A stretch of DNA of 60,429 nucleotides from Thermaurantimonas aggregans (GTDB lineage: Bacteria; Bacteroidota; Bacteroidia; Flavobacteriales; Schleiferiaceae), in the NCBI RefSeq assembly GCF_003851885.1, contig NZ_BHZE01000017.1, forward strand, positions 1 to 60,429, read 5' to 3'. The translations under genes were made by a program, and so were the position numbers. Below, piece after piece: positions 45,007 to 52,910 of this stretch. Position 1 is the first letter of the stretch; every line of letters starts with the position of its first letter. The notes beneath the pieces were generated by a model. That model did not search any database, was not told the origin of the DNA, and worked only from the letters and a program-made list of their open reading frames with translations.

Positions 45007-45014
45007 TAATTTTG
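45007..45014 (+). promoter_or_regulatory. -7 promoter box of cas9
   Basis: TAATTTTG matches TAnnTTTG exactly and ends 15 bp before the cas9 ATG. The upstream sequence is AT-rich without a clear TTTG at -33. A leader of about 10 nt would result. Confidence 0.5.
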
Positions 45015-45029
45015 TGAAAATATCAACTT

Positions 45030-48000
45030 ATGAGCTGTAAAAAAATTTTAGGTCTTGATTTAGGTGTAAGTTCCATTGGATGGGCTTTAATAAAAGAAGA
45101 AAACGAGAAGCCAAATGAAATCATTGGAATGGGAGTTAGAATTATTCCGCTAGACAAAGATGAAAGTGATGAATTTTCATCCGGTAATAAAATTACCAAA
45201 AATCAAAATCGAACATCAAAACGTACAGCTCGTAAAGGTTATTACCGCTACGTTTTAAGAAGAACGGCATTAACAGCTGAATTAAAAAAGCACAACATGT
45301 TTGATGAACAGCTTTTTAAAATATCTCAACTTGAATTATGGGAGTTAAGAGCCAAAGCTGTTACAGAAAAAATTAGTTTAAAAGAATTAGGACGTGTATT
45401 ATATCACCTCAACCAAAAACGTGGTTATAAATCTTCGCGCAGCGAAGAAAATGCAGATAAAAAAGATACTGATTATGTAGCAGAAGTTAAGAACAGATAT
45501 CAATTATTAAAAGAGGAAGGAAAAACCATTGGGCAAAAGTTTTTTGAAGAACTTTCAAAAAACAAACATTACCGAACAAAGCAGCAAGTATTTCCCCGTG
45601 AAGCATACATAGAAGAATTTGATGCCATTATGCAAAAACAAAAGGAATTTTATACTGATGTTTTAACTGATGCATTGATCAATCATTTGAGAGATGATAT
45701 CATATATTTTCAGCGAAAACTTAAATCACAAAAAGGATTAGTAAGTATTTGCGAATTTGAAGGATTTCATGTAAAAAATAAAGATGGTAAAGAAATATTT
45801 ACAGGACCAAAGGTAGCACATCGAAGTAATCCATTATTCCAGGTTGAAAAAATATGGGAAACAATAAATAACATTTCTATTAAAGATAAAAGAAACAATG
45901 AATTTCCGATTAGCTTAGAACAAAAACAAAAAATCTTTGAATATCTTGACAACCACGAAAAGCTTAGCCAAACAGAACTTTTTAAAATACTTGAAATAAA
46001 AGATAAAAGCGGATGGTTTGGCAATAAAATGTTAAGTAAAGGTTTGCAAGGTAATCTCACTAAAATTGCCATAAAAAATGCTTTAAACAATGATGAATTA
46101 GCTAAAAAGTGGCTAACTTTTAATTTAAACATTCAACCAACCGGAAGCAAAACATATCAATATAATCCCAATACCGGAGAAGTAATTAAAGAAATAGAAG
46201 CAAAAATAGTTTCCGAAAAATGCATTAATGAGCCCCTTTATCAATTGTGGCACACCATTTATTCCATATCCGATATTGAAGAATGTAAAAATGCACTAAT
46301 TAAAAAATTTGGTTTTGATAATGCGACTGCCGAACGCCTTGCTAAAATAGATTTTACAAAACAATCCTATGGCAATAAATCGCTTAAAGCCATACGTAAA
46401 ATTTTACCTTATTTAATGGATGGTTTTAAATATAGCGATGCTGCATCTATTGCAGGTTATAATCATTCCAACTCACTTACCAAAGACCAAGTTCTAGCTC
46501 GTCAATTATTGGATAAAATTCCATTGCTTCAAAAAAATTCGCTACGCCAACCGGTGGTTGAAAAAATACTCAACCAAATGATTCATATTGTAAACGATAT
46601 AATTGACGAAAAACGCGGTTGGGTAACAAAAGAAGAAAGAGAAAAAGGACTGTTTGAAATTAGAATAGAACTTGCACGCGAATTAAAACAAAGCAAAGAA
46701 GAACGAAACGAAACCTTTAAAAACATTAATAAAATAGAAAGAGAAAACAAAGAAATTGAAAAACGCTTGCAAGAATTAGGACTAAGAGCCACACGAAAAA
46801 ACATCATCAAGTATCGCTTATTTAACGAAATAAATGGAGAGGATAAAAAAGTAAATGCCATGTGCATTTATACCGGTAAAACATTCTCATTGACTGATGC
46901 TTTAAAGGGTAATGAAATAGATGTAGAGCATATCATTCCAAAATCATTACTTTTTGACGACTCGCAAAGCAACAAAACACTCACCTTTCGATGGATAAAC
47001 CAGGAAAAAGGCGACCGCACAGCTTATGATTACATGGCCTCAAAAGGCGAAGCGGCATTAAATGAATACATCGAACGAGTGAACAAACTTTTTAAGGATG
47101 GTATTATTAAAAAAGCAAAGCATGATAAACTATTAATGCCGGGCGATAAAATACCCAAAGATTTTATTGAACGCCAATTACGTGAATCGCAATACATAGC
47201 CCGTAAATCAAGGGAGATTTTGACACAAGTTGCCAAAAATGTATGGAGCACATCAGGTAGCGTAACCGAATATATGCGCAGATTATGGGGATGGGACGAT
47301 GTATTGATGAATTTGCAAATGCAACGGGTTAAAGAAATTATTCCCGACCCTTTAGCAGAAGGCATTACAGAAATTGTAGAATGGGAAACCCACGATGGGC
47401 AAAAACATCAAAAAGAAGTAATTAAAGATTGGACGAAACGCGATGACCATCGCCACCATGCCATTGATGCCCTAACGATAGCTTGTACAAAACAAGGTTA
47501 TATTCAGCGTATAAATACATTAAGCGCCAAAGCTACACGCGATGAATTATATAAAGCAGTGAGCGAACGAAAAGAAGAATTTCGAGAATCCTTATCATTG
47601 TTAGACAAATATTTTATCAGTCAACGGCCATTTACTACAAAAGAGGTTGAAAACAAAGCCGCAGAAATTATTGTATCATTTAAACCCGGAAAAAAAGTAG
47701 CCACCTGGGGCAAACGATTTATCAAGAAAAACGGCAAACGAATCAAAGTACAAGACCATATACTTGTACCACGTGGCCCCTTAAGCGAAGAAAGTGTGTA
47801 TGGAAAAATTAAAACCATTGAAAAAAACAAACCGGTAAAATACCTCTTTGAAAATCCTCATCTCATCTTTAAACCTTACATAAAAGAATTAGTTGAAAAG
47901 CGATTAGCAGAACACGAAGGCGATACCAAAAAGGCATTGGGCTCACTAAAAAAAGATCCTATCTATCTAGACGAAAACAAAACGATACCCTTGCAATATG

Positions 48001-48812
48001 GCACTTGCTATAAAGAGGAGTATGTATTGAAATATCCTTTAGGATATGGTCAAGGTTATCTATTTAGCGGGAAAGAAGATGATAAGAAAGCATTAAAAGT
48101 TATAGAATCAATAGTTGATAAAAAAGTAAAACAAATTGTCAAAGAAAGAATATTCCCAAATAATAAATTTGTTCCAATAAAAGATTCTTTAAATAATTTA
48201 GAAAAGAATCCAATTTATTACGATATTCTAAAGAAGATACCAATAAAAACTGTAAGATGTTTTACCGGCCTATCAGCGGTTGAACCGGTTAAATATAATA
48301 ATGATGGCCAACCTATTGCCTTTGTAAAACCCGGCAATAACCACCATATTGCCATTTACGAAGATGAGCATGGCAATAAAATACCCCACTTGTGCACCTT
48401 TTGGCATGCGGTAGAAAGAAAAAAATACGGAATTCCGGTAATAATTGAAAATCCAAAAGAAGTATGGGATAAAATTTTAAACGATAAAGAAAAATATCCG
48501 CAAAGCTTTCTGGAAAAATTGCCGGGAGATAAATGGAAAATTCATCAATATTTTCAAACCAATGAAATTTTCTTTATACCTAATGCAGAGAAAAATTTGA
48601 AGTATAGCGATTGTCTTTACAGATTGCAAAAAATGAGTATTATAGGTAATCAAATTAACTTATGGTTTAGACAAATTTTTGAAACACAAATTAAAGACGA
48701 TAAATTATCTAGTAAATCCCTGCGATTCTACAACGTTCAAAGCATCGGTGCTTTGGAAAAATTAAAATTGCAAAAAATAAGGGTAGATAGACTTGGATGT
48801 ATAATAAAATAA
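45030..48812 (+). CDS. cas9: Cas9 RNA-guided endonuclease, type II-C
   Basis: Cleaves DNA matched by crRNA:tracrRNA. RuvC-I KILGLDLGVSSIGWA (Asp10), Arg-rich bridge helix QNRTSKRTARKGYYRYVLRR (59-78), helical recognition lobe (about 90-500), RuvC-II LFEIRIELAREL (Glu547), HNH EIDVEHIIPKSL (His634) with SQSNKTL (Asn648), RuvC-III RDDHRHHAIDAL (His810, Asp813), then a C-terminal PAM-interacting region of about 400 residues. All catalytic residues are intact. 1260 aa is longer than the roughly 1050-1100 aa of Neisseria-type II-C Cas9 and shorter than many flavobacterial ones. No csn2 or cas4 is present. The gene is much AT-richer than the preceding kinase gene, which suggests acquisition by transfer. 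It ends tail-to-tail with the tracrRNA gene. Confidence 0.97.
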   Translation: MSCKKILGLDLGVSSIGWALIKEENEKPNEIIGMGVRIIPLDKDESDEFSSGNKITKNQNRTSKRTARKGYYRYVLRRTALTAELKKHNMFDEQLFKISQLELWELRAKAVTEKISLKELGRVLYHLNQKRGYKSSRSEENADKKDTDYVAEVKNRYQLLKEEGKTIGQKFFEELSKNKHYRTKQQVFPREAYIEEFDAIMQKQKEFYTDVLTDALINHLRDDIIYFQRKLKSQKGLVSICEFEGFHVKNKDGKEIFTGPKVAHRSNPLFQVEKIWETINNISIKDKRNNEFPISLEQKQKIFEYLDNHEKLSQTELFKILEIKDKSGWFGNKMLSKGLQGNLTKIAIKNALNNDELAKKWLTFNLNIQPTGSKTYQYNPNTGEVIKEIEAKIVSEKCINEPLYQLWHTIYSISDIEECKNALIKKFGFDNATAERLAKIDFTKQSYGNKSLKAIRKILPYLMDGFKYSDAASIAGYNHSNSLTKDQVLARQLLDKIPLLQKNSLRQPVVEKILNQMIHIVNDIIDEKRGWVTKEEREKGLFEIRIELARELKQSKEERNETFKNINKIERENKEIEKRLQELGLRATRKNIIKYRLFNEINGEDKKVNAMCIYTGKTFSLTDALKGNEIDVEHIIPKSLLFDDSQSNKTLTFRWINQEKGDRTAYDYMASKGEAALNEYIERVNKLFKDGIIKKAKHDKLLMPGDKIPKDFIERQLRESQYIARKSREILTQVAKNVWSTSGSVTEYMRRLWGWDDVLMNLQMQRVKEIIPDPLAEGITEIVEWETHDGQKHQKEVIKDWTKRDDHRHHAIDALTIACTKQGYIQRINTLSAKATRDELYKAVSERKEEFRESLSLLDKYFISQRPFTTKEVENKAAEIIVSFKPGKKVATWGKRFIKKNGKRIKVQDHILVPRGPLSEESVYGKIKTIEKNKPVKYLFENPHLIFKPYIKELVEKRLAEHEGDTKKALGSLKKDPIYLDENKTIPLQYGTCYKEEYVLKYPLGYGQGYLFSGKEDDKKALKVIESIVDKKVKQIVKERIFPNNKFVPIKDSLNNLEKNPIYYDILKKIPIKTVRCFTGLSAVEPVKYNNDGQPIAFVKPGNNHHIAIYEDEHGNKIPHLCTFWHAVERKKYGIPVIIENPKEVWDKILNDKEKYPQSFLEKLPGDKWKIHQYFQTNEIFFIPNAEKNLKYSDCLYRLQKMSIIGNQINLWFRQIFETQIKDDKLSSKSLRFYNVQSIGALEKLKLQKIRVDRLGCIIK

Positions 48813-48882
48813 AAAAGGGTGAGTTACCCCACCCTGTCTGTTTACACAACGGTCATTTAAGACCTTATTGTGATTTGCTTCT
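48810..48882 (-). ncRNA. tracrRNA of the type II-C locus
   Basis: On the minus strand the RNA would begin near GAAGAAGCAAATCACAAT. AAGCAAATCACAA is exactly complementary to the start of the CRISPR repeat (repeat positions 2-14), and the next U can pair with G1. The nexus-like hairpin GGTC-TTAAAT-GACC follows, then GTTGTG, a linker and the terminator stem AGGGTG/CACCCT, then six U. This order (anti-repeat, AATAAGG nexus, terminator) matches tracrRNAs of Bacteroidota II-C systems. Predicted length about 73 nt. The U-run overlaps the cas9 stop codon (48810-48812). The exact 5' end is inferred from the promoter. Confidence 0.85.
48811..48837 (-). terminator. tracrRNA terminator
   Basis: AGGGTG and CACCCT form the stem with loop GGGTAACT on the minus strand, followed by TTTTTT that overlaps the cas9 stop codon on the other strand. 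Confidence 0.82.
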
Positions 48883-48885
48883 TCG

Positions 48886-48915
48886 CAAAGGTACAATTTT
48901 TTTTAAATCGACAAA
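48886..48915 (-). promoter_or_regulatory. tracrRNA promoter (TTTG-N18-TACCTTTG)
   Basis: On the minus strand TTTG (48912-48915) is followed after 18 nt by TACCTTTG (48886-48893). This is the full Bacteroidota -33/-7 pattern. It places the transcription start at about 48880-48882, directly before the anti-repeat. Confidence 0.78.
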
Positions 48916-48975: not shown

Positions 48976-49021
48976 ACTGCGATTTGCTTTCAATTTTTAA
49001 TATTTTTAGGTTTTTGACATC
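48976..49021 (+). repeat. Degenerate CRISPR repeat next to the phage segment
   Basis: Aligned without gaps to the 46-bp repeat of the array, it differs at six positions: 1 (G to A), 2 (T to C), 5 (T to C), 33 (G to A), 37 (C to T) and 46 (T to C). All six are transitions. Degeneration is typical of the leader-distal last repeat. Positions 2 and 33 fall in the promoter-like TTG and TATTTTTG elements that intact repeats carry, so this copy has lost both. Confidence 0.9.
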
Positions 49022-49771
49022 CTCAACCGCCTGGCCCCCACCATACTGTTTAAAAAAATTATGATGCTGCTGTGGGCCGAATTTGGCGAGCGCTTCGGCA
49101 TGCCCCTGGCCAAGGCCCGCACCAATACACGCGACCTTAACGCCGTCATCAAGCTCGAAAACTTCCTCCGCCAGATGGCCTCTAAAAGCTACGCCATCAT
49201 CGACAATGCCGAAGACCTCGAATTTATAGAAAGCGTAAAGAGCGACAGCTACAATGTGTTCGACAAGATGATCGAGCGATGCAACAGCGAAATGAGCAAA
49301 GCCATCCGCCTGCAAACCCTCACCGGCGATGCCGGCAACCGCGGAGCCCGATCCCTGGGCGAGGTGCACCTGCTGGCCGATGAAGACGTGGCCGAATACA
49401 ACCGCGACTACATCAGCGACCTGATCAACGAAACCCTGCTGCCCCAACTGGCGCAGCACGGCTTCGCCACCGAAGGGCGATACTTTCAATACGTCATCGC
49501 CAAGCAGGTGAGCGATGAGCAACACCGGCAGGATGTATGGCTCGACCAACACTTTGAAATAGACCCAGAGTTCTGGGCCGAGCGCTATGGCGTGCCCATC
49601 AGAGGGCGCAGGCAGCAGCCGGGGGCGCTGCCCGCCAATGATGTGCCGGATGCCAACGACCGCCAAATGATGGGCGCGGCTTCCATCCTGAAGCTACATG
49701 CCGACCTGCACCAATTATACCACCAACCCCACCACCACTGCACCGATGGCCAAGGATGCACTCACCGATAA
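49022..49771 (+). pseudogene. Mu gp29-like (DUF935) portal protein, 3' fragment
   Basis: Open frame of about 250 codons that continues upstream of its first ATG (49061) to the repeat border: ILNRLAPTILFKKIMMLLW... The family-typical block LNRLAPTILFK..LLWAEFGERFGMP, then the region EDLEFIESVKSDSYNVFDKMIERCNSEMSKAI (split here by nothing), LTGDAGNRGAR and HFEIDPEFWAERYGVPI are those of the C-terminal half of phage portal proteins. These form the dodecameric portal at a capsid vertex. The N-terminal half (roughly 200-250 residues) is missing because the sequence switches to CRISPR repeat. GC content is far above that of cas9. Confidence 0.8.
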
Positions 49772-51050
49772 ACAATGGAATGCGCTGGTGGAGCGTTTGG
49801 CGCACCGGTTGTGGCAAAAGCGCCACAAAGGGCTTATTGACCCGGCCACCACCCGCGCCCACGCCCAAAAGCTCATGGAAGCCGTGCAGCAAGGGCTGGG
49901 CTATGGCTATGCCGATGACCTCAGCCCCAGGCAGGCGCAAACCCTCACCGAGTTGCAACGCAACGTGTACCATTTCAGTGGCGCCAAAAACTGGCACCAA
50001 CTGCGCGAAATGAGCGCCCTGCTTACCGGTGAGGGCAAAGCCCGGTCGTTTAACGAGTTTTTATAAGGCGTAAAAGAAATTGATGCCACCTACAATCAAA
50101 ACTACCTGCGTGCCGAATACAACCACGCCATCGCCAGCGCGCAGATGACCGCCAAGTGGCAACAGATGGAAGCCAATGCCCATGCCCTGCCCTATCTGGA
50201 ATACGTGGCCGTGATGGACGGGCGCACCCGCGAAGAGCACCGCAAGCTGCACCACATCGTGCGCCACATCAGCGACCCCTTCTGGCGCACCTGGTACCCG
50301 CCCAACGGCTGGAACTGCCGCTGCAGCGTGCTGCAGTTGGACGAAGACGAAGCCGCAGGCCGACACACCCAACCACTACCCACAGAAATGCCCCCCATAC
50401 AGCCCATGTTTCGCACCAACGTGGGCATCAACCCCATGGTGTATAGCCACAAGCACCCCTATTTTGCCACCATTCCTGCTACGGTGTTGGCAAAAATTCT
50501 GGAGGCTTCGGGCGAGTTGCAAAAGTTCAACCCGGAAAGGCTGGGTGTTTTGCTGCTTGACAGATCTAAGCAGTTTACCCCGCTCGATGTTCCCGGAAGG
50601 CGAGGTAAAGTGCTGTTGCACAAACTTGTCAATACCCATGCGAGCGACTATGAAGATGTGTTAGCCGAGGCAATGTTTAAAGCATCACAAGGCAATACCG
50701 TGGAGTTATTACCTGAACTAAATACAGAAGAAGTGGAAATTTTTTACAAAAAGGTTTTCCCTAACAGCAATCATCATGGCAAGCACCCTGACTACCGACT
50801 AAACTTTACTGACTATGCTGATTTAAAATGGCCCACAGGAAAAGGTAAAAACACTTTTAAGAACAACATTGGCAGCGCAGCTAAACAATGCGAACACGCT
50901 ATTATTAAGTTGCGCCAAGTTCAAAGTTGGAAGCAACTAAAATCTGCCTGCCGCTTAAAAATGGAAAAAGATTACAAACACCTGCAATCCGTTGAAATAA
51001 TTAACGGGCAATTGCGGAGAGTTTATACAAGAAAAAAGCTGGGCTTGTAA
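49698..51050 (+). pseudogene. Mu gpF-like head-morphogenesis protein with nuclease-like C-terminus, one in-frame TAA
   Basis: One frame runs through 49698-51050, interrupted only by TAA at 50064-50066. Before it: KDALTDKQWNALVERLAHRLWQK to ARSFNEFL. After it: GVKEIDATYNQNYLRAEYNHAI, then the gpF core AMDGRTREEH-like VMDGRTREEHRKLH, PFWRTWYPPNGWNCRCSVLQ (Cys pair conserved in the family). The C-terminal part of about 180 residues (FNPERLGVLLL ... NHHGKHPDYRLNF ... YTRKKLGL) resembles BECR-fold (barnase/EndoU/colicin E5-D/RelE) toxin domains that decorate such phage proteins. It is clearly AT-richer than the N-terminal part, a mosaic joint near 50500. AAA to TAA is the simplest origin of the stop. 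It overlaps the portal frame; a later start at 49746 (MAKDALT) is possible. Confidence 0.78.
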
Positions 51051-51062
51051 AAACCCAGCTTC
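51035..51062 (-). terminator. Hairpin over the end of the phage head gene
   Basis: AAGCTGGG and CCCAGCTT flank the TAA of the head gene with a 10-nt loop. The minus strand ends in a run of T, so it would terminate minus-strand transcripts better than plus-strand ones. Confidence 0.5.
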
Positions 51063-51143
51063 AACATGGTGCCAAGCCTTAGGCTCGACTCCACGTTGCA
51101 AATATACGAACAAATTTTTTAAAAGTTCAAAACCCCAAAAAAT

Positions 51144-51194
51144 ATGCCCATTAAACACAGCGGGCTACCGCCCGAAAAATGGATAGCCGAAGCG
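51144..51194 (+). pseudogene. 5' end of a third phage reading frame cut by the CRISPR repeat
   Basis: ATG 51144 opens MPIKHSGLPPEKWIAEA, 17 codons with the style of the phage segment. It then runs into the repeat and hits TGA at 51234. Not recognised. It shows that the phage sequence continues coding up to the repeat border. Confidence 0.45.
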
Positions 51195-51542
51195 GTTGTG
51201 ATTTGCTTTCAATTTTTAATATTTTTGGGTCTTTGACATTACTATATCAAGTAAGTATTTTTTTTTTGCGTTGTGATTTGCTTTCAATTTTTAATATTTT
51301 TGGGTCTTTGACATTGTTCTTACATAACCTTTTCGTTTTTCATATGTTGTGATTTGCTTTCAATTTTTAATATTTTTGGGTCTTTGACATTACACCCGCC
51401 GGTACCATTTTATTTAACTATGTTGTGATTTGCTTTCAATTTTTAATATTTTTGGGTCTTTGACATTAACCTATTACGGATATTAAAATTACTTTTGTTG
51501 TGATTTGCTTTCAATTTTTAATATTTTTGGGTCTTTGACATT
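51195..51542 (+). CRISPR. CRISPR array, five identical 46-bp repeats, four spacers
   Basis: Repeats at 51195-51240, 51270-51315, 51346-51391, 51422-51467 and 51497-51542, all identical (start GTTGTGATTTGC, end CTTTGACATT). Spacers of 29, 30, 30 and 29 nt: 51241-51269, 51316-51345, 51392-51421, 51468-51496. The 5' part of the repeat pairs with the tracrRNA, so crRNAs run on the plus strand. Each repeat contains TTG (positions 2-4), 21 nt, then TATTTTTG (26-33), a Bacteroidota-type promoter firing into the following spacer. With the degenerate copy at 48976, the array is interrupted by phage DNA. Identical repeats next to cas2 and a degenerate one at the far end put the leader on the cas2 side. 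Confidence 0.97.
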
Positions 51543-51655
51543 AGAACTCTATTTATAAAACTGATTATCAAAGACATGCGCTAAAAATAGGATTCAAAAT
51601 CCGTCGCCATTTTGGCTTCGGATTTTGAATTTAACTAAAAAAATACCCTTCTAGA
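51543..51655. promoter_or_regulatory. Leader region between the array and cas2, with an inverted repeat
   Basis: 113 bp, AT-rich. It holds a perfect 12-bp inverted repeat: ATTCAAAATCCG (51592-51603) and CGGATTTTGAAT (51619-51630), loop 15 nt. On the minus strand a T-rich stretch follows, so it may terminate the cas1-cas2 transcript. As the segment next to the newest repeat it is also the likely leader read by Cas1-Cas2 during spacer insertion. Confidence 0.6.
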
Positions 51656-52003
51656 TTAAAACAGTTCTAATTGGAGTTGTACCACCCTTTGCCCTGGATT
51701 TTTCTCTGCTTTTTTCTGGCCGAGTAAAAATTCCATCATTCCAAATTGCTTATCTGTAATTTCAAAAAGAATAATGTTTCCTTTTTCGGGCAAGATGTTT
51801 TTAACACGCTTCTTGTGTACCTCCAGGTTTTCGCGACTGGCACAATGCCTGGCATAGATGGAGTATTGAATCATCATAAAGCCATCCTTGAGCAGTTCTT
51901 TGCGGAAGAGGGAATATGCCTTTCGATCGGCTTTGGTATTGGTGGGCAAATCAAAATATACAAACAGCCACATGACTCGATAGGCATTTAGTCGGGTATT
52001 CAT
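51656..52003 (-). CDS. cas2: Cas2
   Basis: Spacer-acquisition subunit that bridges Cas1 dimers. I set the start at ATG 52003 (MNTRLNAYRVMWLFVYFDLPT); the longer frame to 52090 reads into the cas1 coding region. The 115 aa show the ferredoxin-like pattern: WLFVYFDLPTNTKADRKAY (Asp18), GFMMIQYSIYARHCAS, VKNILPEKGNIILFEITDKQF, which is the type II Cas2 form. cas1 ends 4 bp upstream, so the two genes are one transcript. Both run opposite to cas9, unlike the usual cas9-cas1-cas2 operon. Confidence 0.95.
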   Translation of the reverse strand: MNTRLNAYRVMWLFVYFDLPTNTKADRKAYSLFRKELLKDGFMMIQYSIYARHCASRENLEVHKKRVKNILPEKGNIILFEITDKQFGMMEFLLGQKKAEKNPGQRVVQLQLELF

Positions 52004-52007
52004 CTGA

Positions 52008-52910
52008 TTACAACATTTCAGGATAGAGCATCTTGCGCGACTCTCCGCCAAAGCATGCAACCAAAGAAGCGGATGTGCGCTGTGTGGCAATCATCAGGGG
52101 GCTTTTCTGCCCGTCAATAAGGGTGTCGAGGGTGGGGATCACCAGCAATTCTTTTTTCAGAGCTGTGGTGAGCTGTTCAGGAATTTCGCGTAGTTGGGAG
52201 ACAATGTTTAGCACGACCTGATCCACAAAAGGCCTGTAAGGTTCCATGACATCGTCGGCCAGACAAAAGGGATTGTATTTGTTGCGATGGTAGATGCCTA
52301 CCATCAGCAGGCAGCCGCTGGCGCTCAGGCTTCGGGCGACTACTGCGCGCAATATGGCGTATCCGTAGTTGAGCAGGTTATTAGGCGGTGGGCCATTTCG
52401 ATGGCGGTTGGCTTTGGTCTTTAGGTACTCAAAATACTTCTCCCAGTAGTAGGAAGCTGCTTTGGCCTCTACATTTCCTTTATCACCACTGGTCACTTCA
52501 GAGGCCCATCGATGCATAGGTGTGCTATCGATACCGATCGATGTGAGGAGGGCAGCCTGGTTGCGTATTTTTGAAACTACCGTCTGTTTCCACAAATTTT
52601 TCTTCAGTGGTTCGGAGGCTTCAAGCTGGTAGCGCACTTTTTCAGTAAAGGTGTTGTTCTGAGCTAAGGGCATCAACAGACCGGAGGGCATATGTTTCTC
52701 GTCGCAACAGAGGATGCAAGCATTGTTGTCAATTAAGGAGGCAATGACTGACTGAGTGACAGTGATTTGTTGGTTTTCGAGTATTACAAAACCAATGTCT
52801 TCAACAGGTACCTGATGCGTGGTACCTTGATTTTTTAAATCAATGATAAGCTGCCTATTTGAGATGTGGAGGTAGGCTGGTTGCGTGAAAAAGAGTGTTT
52901 TTTTAATCAT
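52008..52910 (-). CDS. cas1: Cas1 integrase, type II
   Basis: Metal-dependent integrase that inserts new spacers. 300 aa with an N-terminal beta domain (about 1-85) and a helical catalytic domain. Metal ligands Glu148 (GNVEAKAASYYW), His208 (VGIYHRNKYNPF) and the acidic group Asp219/Asp220/Glu223 (LADDVMEPYRP) are visible; the pattern is that of type II (Neisseria/NMENI) Cas1. It leads the cas1-cas2 pair on the minus strand, on the far side of the array from cas9. A perfect palindrome lies just upstream of its ATG (52921-52943). No csn2 or cas4 accompanies it, as expected for II-C. Confidence 0.96.
   Translation of the reverse strand: MIKKTLFFTQPAYLHISNRQLIIDLKNQGTTHQVPVEDIGFVILENQQITVTQSVIASLIDNNACILCCDEKHMPSGLLMPLAQNNTFTEKVRYQLEASEPLKKNLWKQTVVSKIRNQAALLTSIGIDSTPMHRWASEVTSGDKGNVEAKAASYYWEKYFEYLKTKANRHRNGPPPNNLLNYGYAILRAVVARSLSASGCLLMVGIYHRNKYNPFCLADDVMEPYRPFVDQVVLNIVSQLREIPEQLTTALKKELLVIPTLDTLIDGQKSPLMIATQRTSASLVACFGGESRKMLYPEML

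Follow-up and report, generated by a model that had tools for sequence, protein, structure and literature searches.

Organization of the CRISPR-Cas locus

The window, by which we mean the whole stretch of 60,429 nucleotides analysed here, is one whole contig of Thermaurantimonas aggregans (genome of 2.67 Mb in 57 contigs), and a type II CRISPR locus spans approximately 45.0–52.9 kb of it. The locus encodes Cas9, Cas1 and Cas2 together with a tracrRNA with an antirepeat and a terminator, and neither csn2 nor cas4 was found among the neighbouring genes (PADLOC, run on nine proteins, matched cas9, cas1 and cas2 only and none of the six neighbours), as is typical of type II-C. The features are listed below in window coordinates, with the putative promoter elements named -33 and -7.

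45030..48812, plus strand: cas9 (1260 aa)
48804..48885, minus strand: tracrRNA with antirepeat, stem-loops and terminator (start predicted)
48886..48914, minus strand: putative tracrRNA promoter, TTG at 48914-48912, 18 nt, TACCTTTG at 48893-48886
48976..49021, plus strand: degenerate terminal repeat, 40/46 identical, -7 reads TATTTTTA (G to A)
51195..51240, plus strand: repeat 1, -33 TTG at 51196-51198, -7 TATTTTTG at 51220-51227
51270..51315, plus strand: repeat 2, -7 at 51295-51302
51346..51391, plus strand: repeat 3, -7 at 51371-51378
51422..51467, plus strand: repeat 4, -7 at 51447-51454
51497..51542, plus strand: repeat 5, leader-proximal, -7 at 51522-51529
51543..51655, no strand assigned: putative leader between the array and cas2, placed on this side by the polarity of the surveyed arrays
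51656..52000, minus strand: cas2
52008..52910, minus strand: cas1 (type II profile)

Three ORFs lie between cas9 and the array, two of them phage-like and one without a Pfam match. The region 49016-51194 is a remnant of a Mu-type phage (the C-terminal part of a portal protein, and a MuF protein with a CdiA_C toxin domain); its portal match is the only one in the genome and starts on the border of the degenerate repeat, which ends at 49021. The 2173 bp between this repeat and the first intact one (from 51195) resemble an oversized spacer. In a relative of the same genus (L061) the distance from tracrRNA to array is only about 0.6 kb, and upstream of this closest relative's array (positions 600-830) two pieces about 107 nt apart share a partial CRISPR repeat and other sequence.

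Two further structures were noticed close to the array. The putative leader contains an 18-nt inverted repeat with a 3-nt loop (51592-51630), possibly a terminator common to the array and cas1-cas2. On the minus strand at 51028-51130 lies a putative small RNA heading away from the array (TTG at 51130, TATATTTG at 51106-51099), with two strong hairpins, a U tract and a fold z-score of -7.5, present in a single genomic copy and without an Rfam match. Rfam gave no match anywhere within the window, so neither this RNA nor the tracrRNA belongs to a listed family there.

Promoter-like elements in the repeats and upstream of tracrRNA and cas9

The five repeats within 51195-51542 are identical, 46 nt long and separated by four spacers of 29, 30, 30 and 29 nt. 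As the initial annotation had pointed out, each intact repeat carries TTG at positions 2–4 and TATTTTTG at positions 26–33 with 21 nt between them (exact in five of five), and 13 repeat bases follow the latter. This arrangement conforms to the sigma-ABfr promoter pattern TAnnTTTG with TTG 17–23 nt upstream, that range being the one given in the initial annotation and generally held for these promoters. The element lies outside the part of the repeat that pairs with the tracrRNA (position 1 to about 17–22, judged by eye). The degenerate copy (48976-49021), on the 5' side of the array, has three changes within its first five bases, which belong to the pairing part, and the genome holds no further copy of the repeat when searched with its first 34 bases at up to three mismatches. 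Among 20,000 shuffles of the window repeat with GTTG kept, the full pattern arose in 3.1%; its occurrence in one repeat is weak evidence of anything beyond chance. As one T-rich repeat in one array proves little, relatives were surveyed.

The tracrRNA antirepeat forms 13 consecutive pairs with the repeat (48880-48868, minus strand) and begins 5 nt past the G of the -7 element in front of it, and the fold of 48800-48887 has a z-score of -4.1. An antirepeat-like match at 48976-48999 was rejected as a tracrRNA since it belongs to the whole degenerate repeat. An element of the same kind, TAATTTTG, precedes cas9 (45007-45014, 15 nt upstream of the ATG), and the promoter element was found in 5 of the window's 28 gene-upstream stretches, cas9's included, against 1 of 28 on the antisense strand. 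These counts support use of the element across the genome by the primary sigma factor only indirectly.

Conservation of TAnnTTTG in related repeats

Cas9 (TIGR01865) was searched for in 395 phylum, 60 relative, 395 class and 395 order genomes, draws that partly overlap, and the surroundings of cas9 were taken as 74 stretches from the phylum and relative searches and 60 from the class search. A profile of 14 Cas9 sequences provided 80 named loci, the best 80 of at least 566. In the first set, 99 of 135 loci yielded an array, with one locus dropped (L135, which has a Neisseria-like repeat) and one restored (L063); of the 80 loci in the named set, 48 satisfied the 5'-end score, and removal by eye of L229 and L267, whose repeats are not of type II, left 46. 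This gave 145 usable repeats, 135 of them distinct, comprising 99 long repeats of 44–48 nt and 36 shorter ones. The two sets share some contigs; counts below refer to distinct repeats (135 of 145), and those for polarity to arrays. The control consisted of 17 distinct repeats found in the class close to type I Cas1 genes; one of them (L296) may not be CRISPR. The repeat of L135, whose contig belongs to a genome assigned to the same class as the window, ends in TACAATC and is either a transfer or a contamination. The Cas9 proteins of two records titled Leptospiraceae (L197) and Fibrobacter (L224), 64% and 48% identical to the window Cas9, represent either transfer or mis-binning.

The expectation that TAnnTTTG recurs at the same place in related II-C repeats was borne out for many of the long ones: the exact element occurred 3' of position 16 in 49 of 99, compared to 1.01 expected from its rate in 3348 spacers, and antisense in none of the 99. 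The full pattern TTG-N17-23-TAnnTTTG, in sense to the guides, was found in 47/99 long and 2/36 short repeats, and at least five of the six fixed bases in 92 of the 99 long repeats, with 84 of these 92 starting at positions 22–28, equivalent to 17–23 nt from TTG. The TTG at 2–4 is itself nearly universal (98/99 long, 31/36 short) and therefore says little. When the 61 long repeats of the first set were grouped into 31 clusters at 80% identity, 11 clusters had the exact element (shuffling over 300 rounds: mean 0.62, maximum 3) and 28 had at least five of the six bases, against 8.5 by shuffling; for the short clusters of that set the corresponding values were 2/17 against 0.29 and 9/17 against 3.1. 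Many arrays of the named set carry TATCTTTG or TACCTTTG at 23–24. Examples among strains with 46–48-nt repeats are Alkaliflexus imshenetskii (L211), which has TACCTTTG, and Perlabentimonas gracilis (L205), which has TATCTTTG. None of the 17 type I control repeats contained TAnnTTTG on either strand.

Conservation is nevertheless incomplete. The exact element is absent from 50 of 99 long repeats, most of which deviate by one base (TTAG, TTTA, TTCG, GATC, TTTC), and from 31 of 36 short ones (exact in 5/36); the exact or not-exact state changes 25 times on a tree of 128 Cas9 sequences. A nine-member cluster of 36-nt repeats like that of L085, which we take to be the Flavobacterium kind of repeat, differs from the window's array in lacking TAnnTTTG. 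Among patterns of the form XXnnXXXX, TAnnTTTG is the commonest in the region (28 of 66 clusters), but over all shapes with six of eight positions fixed, TAnCTTnG is commoner (32 of 66), and the bare consensus therefore accounts for only part of the conservation. The nn bases, moreover, are TC in 35 of 49 repeats as opposed to TA in 28 of 63 tracrRNA promoters, and on both counts the conservation may partly reflect ancestry or another function.

The ten columns past the motif carry 0.02–0.22 bits in a motif-anchored profile of 52 clusters, an anchoring that favours the motif columns by construction, which indicates that this part of the repeat drifts freely; in a motif-free MAFFT profile of the 66 long-repeat clusters the element is blurred, since it lies a few bases further along in some repeats than in others. 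In 11 close pairs of repeats (at least 85% alike outside the motif), none of 66 fixed bases had changed, compared to 3 of 22 nn bases and 30 of 239 others (p 0.0007); p was 0.0045 at an identity of 0.80, 0.33 at 0.75 (22 pairs) and 0.64 for all 31 pairs, the thresholds having been chosen after the 31-pair result was seen. Significance is lost in the looser pairs because one-base shifts spoil an ungapped comparison. Within arrays, 1751 internal copies from 78 arrays held 43 substitutions, of which a single column, that of the first n in nn, accounted for 16. Truncated terminal repeats kept the -7 element in 18 of 29 cases, about as random breakpoints would give. An apparent protection of the -7 in 31 terminal repeats (4/186 substitutions against 167/403 in bases 5–17) was not counted as evidence, since the 60% identity threshold for accepting copies introduces a bias and truncation from outside is near chance.

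Upstream of the tracrRNAs, TAnnTTTG occurred in 63 of 118 stretches of 68 nt (some of the 118 pattern matches being false, as judged by eye for L077, L135 and L171), compared to 3.8% of random stretches, and 27 of the 63 elements end 5–8 nt ahead of the 19-nt segment that ends the antirepeat. Lineage variants (TTCG, TTTA) did not match between tracrRNA and repeat -7 elements when compared by eye, uncounted. The conservation in the repeats, along with the same element in front of the window's tracrRNA and cas9, supports the initial annotation in its proposal of a repeat promoter built from Bacteroidota elements.

Array polarity and flanking regions

Of 136 arrays with at least four copies, 100 had both ends visible; the 5' terminal repeat was the more degenerate one in 48 of these and the 3' repeat in none, with 52 equal (arrays not deduplicated). 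The greater degeneracy of the 5' repeat marks the 5' end as the old one and places the leader at the 3' end in guide orientation, as in arrays with repeat-borne promoters, and guide-sense RNA must consequently run towards the leader. In the 5' flank (200 nt), TAnnTTTG was found in sense in 12/91 and antisense in 16/91 cases, and in the leader on the inward strand in 5/126 and on the outward strand in 9/126, with 9% for random stretches in both comparisons. Sense promoters within 300 nt of 5' flank were found for 9/61 arrays whose repeats lack the motif and for 6/30 whose repeats have it. In the window, there is no sense TAnnTTTG in the 5' flank (50900-51194, phage remnant), and the element is absent from both strands of the putative leader (51543-51655). 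Neither flank stands out for promoters. A leader promoter, which has no part in the scheme of the initial annotation, could not produce guide-sense RNA from a leader at the 3' end, and the inward strand of the leader is poor in the element.

Proposed transcription of the guides

Based on the above, each repeat probably represents, and we say so with good confidence, one promoter of the sigma-ABfr type that would produce one guide per spacer, an interpretation in essence already given in the initial annotation and supported by the survey. RNA polymerase with a sigma-ABfr-type primary sigma factor would bind each repeat, with the TTG at 2–4 as -33 and TAnnTTTG (here at 26–33) as -7. RNA would start about 4–8 nt past the G of the -7, inside the last bases of the repeat, as the element is named for its -7 place and the window's antirepeat starts 5 nt past the G. 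The predicted transcript consists of the 29–30-nt spacer and the next repeat, the 5' part of which would pair with the tracrRNA and be loaded into Cas9. Every spacer would thus have its own start, with transcription heading towards the leader and the promoter of the last repeat firing into it. That the polymerase uses these elements, where it starts and that the repeat promoter is the main source of guides we infer from the sequences.

The tracrRNA-pairing part of the first repeat would be useless for a guide. This fits a study of extraneous crRNAs in which the mutations of the extra repeat are reported to lie mostly in its first 15 nt and a need for it to retain its promoter is suggested (PMC12080349). 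The degenerate copy in the window resembles this pattern in the three changes at its start, but also has one in the -7.

Repeat length

Several 35–36-nt repeats are nested in the long-repeat Cas9 clade. In three pairs of a short repeat and a long relative (L148/L068, L270/L141 and L114/L097), the 35–36-nt repeat aligns with a gap of 8–11 nt between the -7 and the repeat end, and the -33/-7 spacing is kept within 0–3 nt. L109/L108 gives a poorer alignment, TTTG is gone from L266, and the alignments of L199 and L100 are less clear. This gap next to a retained spacing suggests that long repeats owe their additional bases to an initiation segment, roughly one turn of DNA in length. A wider proposal for the 44–48-nt repeats of Bacteroidota II-C systems, which we regard as possible but would not favour as a whole, treats them as promoter cassettes and combines four elements: the first 30–33 nt would hold the -33 and -7 of the phylum's primary sigma factor; the extra 8–11 nt past the -7 would let the guide start within the repeat and carry the whole spacer; the step from 36 to 46–47 nt would present the two ends of the repeat to the integrase on the same face; and the shrunken repeats (L148, L270, L114) would have lost just the extra segment, with a -33/-7 spacing that changed by no more than a few bases.

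Alternative explanations

The array could instead be read through from its 5' (old) flank into one long precursor that is cut by RNase III with the tracrRNA, in which case TAnnTTTG would be weak or unused. The deviation of half of the long repeats from the exact element and its absence from most 36-nt repeats speak for such read-through, but sense promoters show no clear enrichment in the 5' flank (12/91 against 9% in random stretches, with more on the antisense strand), they are not more frequent where the repeats lack the motif, and the 5' flank of the window is a phage remnant devoid of a sense element; we therefore consider read-through unlikely. Alternatively, the stretch may be kept for another role, such as Cas1-Cas2 integration or binding of Cas9 or tracrRNA, its likeness to a promoter being accidental. 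Conserved parts of repeats do serve integration, and the partial conservation of nn (TC) is not needed by a bare -7. The element nevertheless takes no part in the antirepeat pairing, and the ten columns after it reach 0.22 bits at most; it shares its fixed bases with the promoter of the phylum, and these also occur upstream of tracrRNAs; and some 35–36-nt relatives keep the distance from the element to TTG while that to the 3' end shrinks. An accidental likeness thus appears quite improbable.

Most CRISPR types are transcribed from a leader promoter; the introduction of PMC5704556 assumes as much for Bacteroides fragilis, and PMC5006608 proposes it for R. anatipestifer. With the leader at the 3' end in guide orientation, however, a transcript from it would be antisense, and the inward leader strand is poor in TAnnTTTG; on polarity and flank scans, this explanation was rejected and retains virtually no credibility. 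A promoter in each repeat is the reading that we prefer.

Comparison with known systems and implications

The logic of crRNA transcription that the initial annotation had likened to that of Neisseria and Campylobacter II-C systems agrees with what was found here, namely a promoter sequence in five of five repeats and a leader at the 3' end. In Neisseria and Campylobacter, a repeat promoter of the common sigma-70 type sits towards the 3' end of the repeat, and RNA starts in the spacer. The repeats of the window differ in having TTG-N21-TAnnTTTG, the -7 of which is followed by another 13 repeat bases, for which reason the start should here fall inside the repeat. What is shared with these systems, for which a promoter in each repeat and tracrRNA-dependent guides are described in PMC8616872 and PMC12080349, is one start per spacer, transcription towards the leader and tracrRNA dependence of the guides, all of which are predicted here. 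As repeat-borne II-C promoters are already known, the repeat promoter would be a phylum-specific variant of a known principle.

Within the same phylum, a repeat-encoded promoter has been proposed for the II-C arrays of Flavobacterium columnare and F. psychrophilum from TTG alone, which precedes the spacer by 33 or 35 bp (PMC8092290, PMC10309648), and RNA-seq of F. columnare indicated transcription towards the leader, based on eight reads. PMC10309648, which takes up the TTG-only proposal of PMC8092290 for the repeats, gives TAnnTTTG for the cas9 gene. The window's array thus resembles those of both species in phylum and in the proposed kind of promoter, and differs in that only TTG is named there, as far as the accessible text of these papers extends. 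The sigma-ABfr promoters of Bacteroides thetaiotaomicron and B. fragilis have TAnnTTTG at -7 and TTTG at about -33 and were described at genes and small RNAs, with no CRISPR reported in the available part for the species of that study (PMC7366714); the elements seen here are alike in sequence and place but reside in CRISPR repeats. In the openly licensed literature, we found no paper naming TAnnTTTG inside II-C repeats. Published views on these Bacteroidota systems, in the portions available, disagree between a leader promoter, no repeat promoter and TTG only.

If correct, a promoter in each repeat would settle how guides are made in many Cas9 systems of gut and environmental Bacteroidota, and would allow the guide strand and the 5' end of the guide to be predicted from a sequence rule. 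It would also suggest why the II-C repeats of Bacteroidota are so long, and an array would probably fall silent on transfer to a host whose sigma factor differs.
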